Of a stretch of DNA of 58,828 nt, positions 20,546 to 37,692 are shown piece by piece; within the stretch, counting starts at the first letter, position 1; every line of letters starts with the position of its first letter. The position numbers and the translations under genes were made by a program. Origin of the DNA: an uncultured Erysipelotrichaceae bacterium (GTDB lineage: Bacteria; Bacillota_I; Bacilli_A; Erysipelotrichales; Erysipelotrichaceae); assembly GCA_944325255.1 (NCBI GenBank), contig CALUZH010000019.1, positions 1 through 58,828 of the forward strand, written 5' to 3'. Under the pieces are notes generated by a model that made no database searches, had not been told where the DNA came from, and saw nothing but the letters and a program-made list of their open reading frames with translations.

Positions 20546-22270
20546 ATGGACAATCTATTACGTAATGCCTTAAGAATGCTGGAAATCGGCATCTATCCTT
20601 TAATTTTATTAATCAGTTTTTTATATCTCTATCATAAGCCAAGATATAAAAAAATCATCAAGACTCATTGGAAGCATCTTTTGCTAAACACTATTGTCTT
20701 TGCCTTGATCGGGGCTATAGCGATAATTATCTTCTTCCGCTTAGAAGATACCATCTATGCCTATGATTATGCCGGGCACTGGCAAAGATCCTTAGAATTG
20801 CGCAAGCTCTTTTTTGAAGATCCATCGGCTATCTTTAATGTTGTCTATGAATCAATGAACTACCAGGATTATAGTTACTTGCCGGGACTTTTCGGCTTAG
20901 GCTTAACTATTTGGAATACCAGCTACGGTTATTTCTGCTTAACAATATTTAGCTATTTCATCATTCCTTCAATATTACTCTTACAAATAATATATTATAC
21001 CTTCACTGATAAATACCCTTATTTACCGCTTTTACTTTTTATAATTTTCTATCCGCTATATTTTACGGTCTTTTATGGCGAAGTAGACGGCATCGGCTTA
21101 TTTTTTATTTTAATGATTTATCTTTTAATGCTGCTTCCCCGATTTGAGGAAATCACTTGGAGCGATGCCATTATAACTAATCTTTATGCTTTCTGCGCCA
21201 TCTTTTTAAGACGCTGGTATCTTTATCCTTTAGTCTTTATATATCTTTGCATCTTTATCAAATATCTTATCTATTATCATTTCAAAGTCTTTATTAAAGG
21301 TCAATTTAAAGATTTCATTAAAATTATCTTATCCGGCTTAATTATGCTTTCCATAATCTTATTATTCTTCTTTCCGTTTTTTGAAAGAGTTCTTTTCAAT
21401 AATTATGCTGAAAGCTATGCCTACTATGACCGTCCGGGAAAAATATCGGCCTTCATTAATTTTTATTCTCCAATCTTATTGATTATTTCCTTATTCGGTA
21501 TTTATCATTTGATTAAGAATAAAAATTATGAACTTATTATGATATGTGCTATTCTTTTAGTTCTCCCGACTGTCCTTTTTTGGCAAACCCAATCTTTTGA
21601 ATATCATCACTACTATATTTCAACTATTCCGGTCTTTATCTTATTTATGATAGGTATGATGGAACTTTTCTCATACGGTATTAAAATTCTTACCTGGGGT
21701 TTTCCGATTATTTGTCTCATCCAGGCCATCGGCATATTTACCTTGCCGGATAATGCCATTCCGGTACTTACAAGTTTACGTAAAAAACCGGAAGTTCTTC
21801 CCTATAAAGCCGAAGTTAGCGAACTAGCTTATTTTCTGAGAAATTTGATGCCCGAAGATTGGCAATCAGCATATATTGCCTCCGGCAATTCTTCATTCAA
21901 TGATTCGATGATCCGTAATTCCGTTTTACCGGATCTTGATATGCCGCAAATCGACTTTGCCGTTCTTGACCTAAGAGACGGTTTCCCGAAGGACCTTGAA
22001 TATGTACAATATGTAATTACGATTGATCCAATTCTATATTCCGATAAAGACTACCAGCATATCTATGATGTTATATCAAATGCCATCTGGAATGAACCGC
22101 TTATATCTGAAGCTTATAAAGAAATATATAGCGTTGAAATCAACCAGTTAAATATTTGTGTATATGAAAGAATCGCCGACTATACACCGGCGATGAAAGA
22201 ATATTTCTATAAGCAAATGCTTTCCTATTATCCTGACCACCAAGACTTCTTTGCCTATATCTTAGATTAA
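20546..22270 (+). CDS. polytopic membrane protein, GT-C glycosyltransferase-like
   Basis: The 574-residue protein has about twelve hydrophobic helices and a first large extracellular loop holding acidic residues (DYAGHWQRS after helix 2), the place where GT-C enzymes keep a catalytic aspartate. The last 150 residues form a soluble extracellular domain. GT-C enzymes use lipid-phosphate sugars outside the membrane. It is divergent from the LtaS/GtrB-like operon, and I infer that it uses the lipid-linked sugar made by the 15876-16799 enzyme. It ends by overlapping the converging GT4 gene by nine bases. Family assignment is by layout only. Confidence 0.55.
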   Translation: MDNLLRNALRMLEIGIYPLILLISFLYLYHKPRYKKIIKTHWKHLLLNTIVFALIGAIAIIIFFRLEDTIYAYDYAGHWQRSLELRKLFFEDPSAIFNVVYESMNYQDYSYLPGLFGLGLTIWNTSYGYFCLTIFSYFIIPSILLLQIIYYTFTDKYPYLPLLLFIIFYPLYFTVFYGEVDGIGLFFILMIYLLMLLPRFEEITWSDAIITNLYAFCAIFLRRWYLYPLVFIYLCIFIKYLIYYHFKVFIKGQFKDFIKIILSGLIMLSIILLFFFPFFERVLFNNYAESYAYYDRPGKISAFINFYSPILLIISLFGIYHLIKNKNYELIMICAILLVLPTVLFWQTQSFEYHHYYISTIPVFILFMIGMMELFSYGIKILTWGFPIICLIQAIGIFTLPDNAIPVLTSLRKKPEVLPYKAEVSELAYFLRNLMPEDWQSAYIASGNSSFNDSMIRNSVLPDLDMPQIDFAVLDLRDGFPKDLEYVQYVITIDPILYSDKDYQHIYDVISNAIWNEPLISEAYKEIYSVEINQLNICVYERIADYTPAMKEYFYKQMLSYYPDHQDFFAYILD

Positions 22271-23419
22271 CTTAAGAATATTGGCCTTAATAAGCTCAAT
22301 ATCATTGCCAACCAAATTATGGCCCTCTTCTTTTAAAATCCGATAACTTGGACTGTTGCTTTCACAGATTCCAAGTATCGGTTTTTTTAATAAGAGATAT
22401 TCGGTTATTTTGGATGGAAGATATGGCTGAATGGGAGCTCCTTCCATAATGGTATCAAATAAAACCAAGATATCCGCCTTTTTCATAAGCTCAATACTTT
22501 GATCATATGTAACTTTAGGATGAATAATAAAAACATCTTCAAGATGATATGCTTTGATTTTCTTAATATCGCTTTCCTGGATCTCTGAATATTGATGAAA
22601 AACAATCTTTGAAGCTAAGTCCTTATCTTCAGCTTTTAATATCTTTAAGGCTTCTAAAAAATGATCTATTTTTCTAAGGCCATATAAGCGTCCCAGATGG
22701 ACGGCAATTTTCGGTTTATTGGAAACAGCAGGGGCATTTATTAATGTCTTATACATCTCCCATTCCGGAATATAAGTTAAAGGCTCTACAGTACTTTTTT
22801 TCAATAATTCCGCTTTATTTGAATATTGACCTACTGTAAAATCCCTTTGTTCCTCACAGATAAAAATCAATTCATCGGCATAATCAATAGCCGCTTTTTC
22901 ATAAATATCATTCATATAAACAAAAGAGCCGACATGAAAAGCGATACGATAAAAGATGCTGCGCTTTTTTAAATCCGGATCATCTTTATATGGCGAGCCC
23001 TTAATAGGATCGGAAAAAGAGGCAATCCATTTAATATGAGGATATCTTTTTTTAATATATTTCCCGCAAAGATGACTGATGCCCGGAACTGATGATGTAT
23101 ATATGGCATCATAATTACCCTCTTTAAATTTCTTATATGTCCATTTTATATAACGATACATATTGATAAGGCTTAAGGGCAAACGTAAAGGATGGGCAAT
23201 AGCTATGGCATTATCATAGTCACATAAGTATTCGACATGAAACTTATGATACTCTTCATCATTCAGTAATTCCTTCAATATGCCTCGATCTTCCTTCCCC
23301 TTAAAGGCCAGTACATCCATCAAATAATCCATCTTCCTTAAACGTTTATAAGCTAAAAGGGTAACGGTATCATTGTAGGGAACAAAGCCCCCTGGTATCA
23401 CCAACATCTTTTTAGTCAT
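22262..23419 (-). CDS. GT4-like glycosyltransferase
   Basis: The 385-residue protein has two Rossmann-type halves. The first holds SSVPGISHLCGKYIKK and an SFSDPIKGSPY segment, as in GT4 enzymes, and the second begins at the HLGRLYGLRKIDHFL strand-helix, with ADILVLFDT and a nearby PSKITEYLLLKKPI segment that places the conserved glutamate. It acts in the cytoplasm on a nucleotide sugar. It starts eight bases inside the DUF2304 gene and is the third gene of the 24450-22262 operon. Confidence 0.75.
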   Translation of the reverse strand: MTKKMLVIPGGFVPYNDTVTLLAYKRLRKMDYLMDVLAFKGKEDRGILKELLNDEEYHKFHVEYLCDYDNAIAIAHPLRLPLSLINMYRYIKWTYKKFKEGNYDAIYTSSVPGISHLCGKYIKKRYPHIKWIASFSDPIKGSPYKDDPDLKKRSIFYRIAFHVGSFVYMNDIYEKAAIDYADELIFICEEQRDFTVGQYSNKAELLKKSTVEPLTYIPEWEMYKTLINAPAVSNKPKIAVHLGRLYGLRKIDHFLEALKILKAEDKDLASKIVFHQYSEIQESDIKKIKAYHLEDVFIIHPKVTYDQSIELMKKADILVLFDTIMEGAPIQPYLPSKITEYLLLKKPILGICESNSPSYRILKEEGHNLVGNDIELIKANILKLI

Positions 23420-37537: not shown

Positions 37538-37579
37538 ATTATACACTTTATTGACAAAGCTTTTCAAAAACCATAGAAT
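37538..37579. promoter_or_regulatory. overlapping divergent promoters (wecE-ugd / 14-codon ORF)
   Basis: On the minus strand TTGAAA (37562-37567), 18 bases and TATAAT (37538-37543) serve wecE-ugd. On the plus strand TTGACA (37551-37556), 17 bases and TAGAAT (37574-37579) serve the small leader transcript. The -35 boxes lie inside each other's spacers. Confidence 0.65.
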
Positions 37580-37585
37580 GTACTC

Positions 37586-37630
37586 ATGAACGACGGTGAC
37601 AGTAGTCATAACGTAATTTTTAAAACTTAA
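37586..37630 (+). CDS. 14-codon leaderless ORF (possible leader peptide)
   Basis: ATG at 37586 opens MNDGDSSHNVIFKT and a TAA. The -10 box TAGAAT ends exactly six bases before this ATG, the same arrangement seen at several full-length genes here, so transcription would begin at the start codon. A strong intrinsic terminator follows after one base. The whole transcript is about 80 bases and lies upstream of the CNNM/HlyC-type gene. It may be an attenuator, a free small RNA or a peptide gene. Translation is unproven. Confidence 0.4.
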   Translation: MNDGDSSHNVIFKT

Positions 37631-37631
37631 G

Positions 37632-37666
37632 GCCAACTAAAAAGGATATTTTTTAGTTGGCTTTTT
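37632..37666 (+). terminator. intrinsic terminator between leader ORF and CNNM/HlyC gene
   Basis: GCCAACTAAAAA (37632-37643) pairs with TTTTTTAGTTGGC (37649-37661), followed by TTTTT. Transcripts from the TTGACA promoter must pass it to reach the gene starting at 37693. No second promoter is obvious between, so read-through control is possible. Confidence 0.75.
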
Positions 37667-37692
37667 ATTATCCAAGGGGGATTTATTTTTAT

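Follow-up and report, generated by a model that had tools for sequence, protein, structure and literature searches.

A short unit upstream of a CNNM-family membrane protein gene in an uncultured Erysipelotrichaceae bacterium is probably a leader-peptide transcription attenuator of that gene, which would use intrinsic ribosome destabilization (IRD) and respond to Mg2+. Since peptides of this type are found again ahead of related genes in many other bacteria, the unit probably lets the failure of ribosomes at low Mg2+ switch a probable exporter off. The window, i.e., the whole stretch of DNA analysed, comprises 58,828 nucleotides.

Direct reading bore out the layout that had been described from the letters alone: a promoter, six bases, an ATG opening the upstream open reading frame (uORF) MNDGDSSHNVIFKT, a stop, a terminator and the CNNM gene (Table 1). 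The terminator stem, originally given as 12 bp, measures 12-16 bp according to the treatment of its ends (16 pairs with the A-U and G-U ends, about 12 in the core). It had been placed within two bases of the stop codon and lies closer still, as the stop codon itself supplies the first two bases of the stem. The 115-nt leader folded with a z of -4.3, and none of 200 shuffles was equally stable. The peptide begins N-D-G-D-S-S after the initiator, contains D3 and D5 as its only acidic residues and has no proline. The uORF has no Shine-Dalgarno (SD) sequence, and is predicted to be leaderless because the promoter spacing puts the start site at or next to the ATG; the earlier description as leaderless thus agrees with the spacing and keeps the status of a prediction. 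Its promoter had also been called the strongest in the area, a rank that it shares, since two further promoters within 36-40 kb match at 11/12 positions. One of these is divergent, overlaps the uORF promoter and drives a DegT-type aminotransferase gene, and because of this overlap the two genes may interfere.

Table 1 Features of the candidate attenuator and of related loci
Feature	Position	Strand	Remarks
Sigma-70-type promoter TTGACA-N17-TAGAAT	37551..37579	+	-35 37551-37556, -10 37574-37579; 11/12 match
14-codon leader peptide ORF MNDGDSSHNVIFKT	37586..37630	+	ATG 37586, TAA 37628-37630; predicted leaderless
Intrinsic terminator	37629..37666	+	Stem 37629-37664, T-run 37662-37666; base overlaps uORF stop codon
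Shine-Dalgarno AAGGGGG of CNNM gene	37674..37680	+	Read directly
CNNM/CorC-family membrane protein gene, 441 aa	37693..39018	+	ATG 37693; domain matches
Divergent promoter TTGAAA-18-TATAAT of DegT-type aminotransferase gene	37567-37538	-	Promoter scan
MgtE uORF loci	L210 (G000:C12, ~21000-22400), L212, L216, L222, L224, L227-L234, L239, L240, L242		

A domain search of the downstream product found a CNNM transmembrane domain, a CBS domain and a CorC_HlyC domain, which is the make-up of MpfA and would suit the probable metal-homeostasis membrane protein of the original prediction. MpfA of S. aureus and B. subtilis and the CorC-domain proteins of Salmonella protect against excess Mg2+ (PMC6711546, PMC12815764, PMC12421838), and judging from this literature the window protein is a probable Mg2+ exporter. 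When 123 CNNM proteins were placed on a tree, the window gene grouped with clostridial genes in a clade with a support of 98.

The survey took in the upstream regions of 103 orthologue-like CNNM genes of the family and order and of 20 paralogues, together with those of 80 CNNM genes from named genomes, which are mostly metagenome-assembled. The uORF start codons were picked by SD match, and the filter accepted ORFs with an SD match of at least 5/6 and at least three D/E among residues 2-9. Such short ORFs with acidic starts preceded 44 of the 183 orthologues, compared with about 3 in shuffles, a comparison in which the kinship of the surveyed loci inflates the p values. The family and order set contributed 25/103 (1.36 in shuffled upstream regions, 0 on the reverse strand) and the named genomes 19/80 (1.43 and 1, respectively); the same strict filter passed 1/20 paralogous CNNM genes and 1/145 ordinary genes on the same contigs. 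Examples are MDEDSWQKCHNQYLN, M[NS]STEDP[GS]RSC.., MSDDCDSNCRI.., MENSDQDSCP.., MNDDPGDADR.., MEPDPDGSPV.. and MDDVPLPRC... When ten residue classes were passed through this filter, D/E stood out (44 versus 3.7 in shuffles); S/T reached 20 versus 10, C and P were enriched about two- to three-fold on small counts, and K/R, I/L/V, N/Q, aromatics, G/A and H stayed within about 2 standard deviations of the shuffles. Overall, D, P, E, S and C are over-represented in the leaders, whereas F, I, K, V, L and Y are under-represented. In 24 pairs of related uORFs, identity was 85% over residues 2-9 and only 35% over residues 10-20. By these identities and a synonymous recoding test described below, the conserved feature is the start of the peptide rather than an internal RNA hairpin.

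The window uORF itself, with two acidic residues and no SD, fails the automatic filter, which counts against the attenuator reading; it was admitted to the survey by position and motif. The SDs that precede the uORFs of many relatives indirectly favour translation of such uORFs in the cell. Its start, MNDGDSSHN, compares with MDNADSSDAD, MEAGDSCPD, MDEGDSESD, MDQADDSGAD, MDADDSDPS and MRDAGDCDP in its own clade. With a residue profile built without it, on the remaining leaders, the window peptide outscored all but 0.85% of random upstream ORFs. No homologue of the leader was found at the DNA level in 41 relatives, which also counts against an attenuator, and the exact peptide is a singleton so far; it is the peptide type that recurs. 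The conservation check suggested at the outset was therefore answered in two ways: the CNNM gene of the only same-genus genome lacks the uORF and belongs to a separate lineage in the tree, whereas most loci in the supported clade of the window gene have the same type of peptide together with a terminator.

The uORF stop stands in a close relation to the terminator. Terminators were seen in 33 leaders, the hits in L098 and L100 being weak (-7 kcal/mol), and in every one of these leaders the uORF ended inside the terminator, past it, or 0-10 nt upstream of the stem; among ordinary gene ends on the same contigs, 88/180 (49%) did so. A ribosome with a stop codon in its A site extends about 10 nt past the stop. 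In constrained folding of the window leader, the footprint of a ribosome at the stop codon abolished the predicted terminator hairpin; with the ribosome at Asp5 the terminator was intact, and with the ribosome three codons before the stop most of it remained. Pairing of the uORF start region with the terminator, as expected of an antiterminator, was not found in the CNNM leaders (mean z 0.16), so that masking of the terminator by the ribosome is the simplest model. Against an attenuator, terminators near stop codons are common in bacteria whose polymerase outruns the ribosomes (PMC7858274). Furthermore, the short life of a terminating ribosome makes it uncertain that translation of an ORF of only 14 codons would be coupled to transcription, and masking may require the polymerase to pause, as it does in vmlR (PMC9226507). 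As a separate observation, the terminators of the clostridial leaders share approximately RGGCATRGYCTG..CAGGCTRTGCCTTTTTGYG, which is more than termination needs (L146, L151, L152, L160, L168, L174, L177 and others).

Acidic residues early in the nascent chain destabilize ribosomes (IRD). In the mechanism that we propose, the polymerase would start at about 37586 and a ribosome would load on the uORF at once. The nascent M-N-D-G-D-S-S would be of the ribosome-destabilizing kind, more strongly so at low Mg2+. Early drop-off would allow the terminator stem to form, and transcription would halt before the exporter gene. With ample Mg2+, the ribosome would reach the stop codon in the base of the terminator and its footprint would cover the 5' arm; no hairpin would then form, the CNNM gene would be transcribed and Mg2+ would presumably be exported.

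Several known systems provide precedents for parts of this scheme. For mgtL, the leader of mgtA, it has been proposed that ribosomes dropping off when Mg2+ is low determine transcription (PMC11282234). The mgtL of E. coli and Salmonella, a short uORF whose start is of the acidic/proline type and which precedes the gene of a Mg2+ transporter, resembles the window unit, but it controls an importer, which is turned on by the abortion of translation through an RNA rearrangement and a Rho-dependent terminator; the window unit, from another phylum, has an intrinsic terminator, is predicted to be leaderless and precedes a putative exporter that abortion is predicted to turn off. In mgtQ, an 8-codon uORF, two acidic codons are required if a Mg2+ transporter is to be controlled through ribosome destabilization (PMC8092293). 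The mgtQ leader of the Salmonella mgtCBRU operon thus resembles the window unit in its two acidic codons and in the ribosome destabilization proposed here, but it frees a ribosome-binding site, acting on translation of an importer gene without terminator action. CorC has an IRD-prone start, and corC and mgpA are induced by high Mg2+ (PMC12421838). CorC (YbeX) and MgpA (YoaE) are likewise products of CorC-domain Mg2+-tolerance genes, with a destabilizing start (CorC) or an overlapping uORF (YoaL); unlike the window unit they have no terminator, and they parallel the own-N-terminus and coupled-uORF forms described below. From mgtL, mgtQ and CorC we infer that low Mg2+ should keep the window unit off and high Mg2+ should turn it on, which would suit an exporter. 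In the literature searched (preprints and most subscription journals lay outside its scope), leader peptides of CNNM genes and the regulation of CNNM/MpfA in Gram-positive bacteria are undescribed. The earlier statement that no element with such a layout has been described thus stands for the exact layout, although its parts have precedents in mgtL, mgtQ and the CorC N-terminus; the kind of control is known from mgtL and mgtQ, and this wiring and host range appear to be undescribed.

Of the three options originally proposed, the leader-peptide attenuator is strongly favoured, because acidic uORFs recur before CNNM orthologues and their stops overlap, pass or nearly touch the terminator. What the attenuator senses is less firmly set. 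Translation stress, ribosome-targeting antibiotics, the supply of aspartyl-tRNA or another metal could take the place of Mg2+, since the anatomy would serve any signal that alters completion of the uORF, and Gram-positive leaders combining an antibiotic-sensing uORF with a terminator are known. We consider such a signal unlikely, though the best placed of the alternatives. The enrichment of D, P, E and S fits IRD and not an antibiotic-arrest motif or a single-codon run, and the genes downstream are probable Mg2+ transporters of both directions. In vmlR-type leaders, a uORF likewise decides the fate of an intrinsic terminator in a Gram-positive host, but they sense antibiotic-stalled ribosomes via antiterminator structures (PMC9226507), of which the CNNM leaders yielded none.

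The transporters of the other direction are the Mg2+ importers MgtE. Acidic/proline uORFs preceded by an SD were found before 16/39 MgtE genes of the relatives and of the window's genome, with 1.1 expected from shuffles; they are of the type MDDxP/MDExP, and the uORF in the window's own genome reads MEIPDNLSTV... An Rfam scan of 12 of these loci found no M-box upstream of MgtE, and uORFs of this type without an M-box hint, independently of the CNNM genes, at Mg2+ as the signal. In two MgtE loci (L210 and L214), base pairing is possible between the uORF start region and the region of the hairpin downstream, and such pairing might invert the logic. Under a looser acidic/proline pattern, the paralogous CNNM clade also gave 6/20 versus 1.2.

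An improbable explanation is coincidence, in which what separates an upstream promoter from CNNM would be a short RNA or a terminator left over from lost DNA, the ORF would be due to chance, and CNNM would be expressed by leak-through or from an unseen promoter. The weakness of the window uORF when taken alone, the missing DNA homologue and a TATTAT immediately 5' of the CNNM SD would fit such an origin. The excess of acidic uORFs before CNNM genes over shuffles and ordinary genes, which includes the window's own clade with its terminators, argues against it, as does a promoter scan of the interval between the terminator and the CNNM gene, which returned no site and no convincing separate CNNM promoter. 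The recurrence of the position before CNNM and the failure to find a convincing second promoter likewise make the free small RNA of the original prediction less likely. A remnant of a lost upstream gene was considered and rejected, because acidic uORFs recur and a TAG at 37574-37576 shuts the upstream frame.

Least probable is a leader RNA that itself binds the metal and toggles the terminator, with the ORF incidental: the small hairpin in the uORF does resemble those of some relatives and the sequence shared by the clostridial terminators exceeds the need, but the uORF start does not pair with the terminator, the peptide start is the conserved part, and neither an Rfam family nor unusual hairpin stability was found. 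Specifically, the Rfam search gave no metal riboswitch in the window or in 16 related loci, the M-box model being unmatched, and folding of the window leader gave only the terminator and one small hairpin, TGAC-AGTA-GTCA at 37597-37608 within the uORF; the ligand-binding riboswitch, the third of the original options, is therefore unsupported. As a conserved RNA element this hairpin was rejected, since in 48 leaders the corresponding hairpins were no stabler than synonymous recodings (mean z 0.03). Similar hairpins, GGAC-AGTT-GTCC and GGAT-AGTT-ATCC, seem to covary in a few loci (L104, L106, L107, L050 and L149).

The CNNM genes surveyed fall into three architectures. In the first, that of the window and of many clostridial loci, the uORF overlaps or abuts an intrinsic terminator; in the second, the uORF stop overlaps or abuts the CNNM start and a terminator is absent; in the third, there is no acidic uORF and the CNNM protein itself has an acidic start (MDSDP, MDADP, METDP, MSDDP etc.). 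Among the 103 family and order loci, an acidic start of the protein itself was recorded in 49 and an acidic uORF in 30, a number that includes the window and four other loci added manually. No locus showed both. The remaining 24 showed neither at the thresholds used, and weaker uORFs occur in several of them. On the tree, the four architecture states change at least 38 times, partly because the labels rest on thresholds: L128 and L132, labelled as having none, carry acidic uORFs. A common logic is predicted for all three forms, in which ribosome abortion leaves little exporter. More broadly, and tentatively, ribosome stability on acidic nascent peptides could be a general gauge of Mg2+ in Bacillota and some Spirochaetota, wired differently to exporters (CNNM) and importers (MgtE), and in the exporters through three interchangeable forms. 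If so, nascent-peptide Mg2+ sensing, known from enterics, would reach many uncultured gut Bacillota, with the logic reversed to suit an exporter and with a simple mechanism, the masking of an intrinsic terminator by the ribosome. It would also suggest how Gram-positive CNNM/MpfA exporters are controlled, and provide a system in which to test whether transcription and translation are coupled in bacteria regarded as uncoupled. In the named set, one locus (L133) has both a uORF, MDDVPFLLL, and an acidic CNNM start of its own, MDEGDST. The motif MDEGDS thus opens the uORF in L130 but the CNNM protein in L133, which gives the appearance of a fusion of leader and gene.
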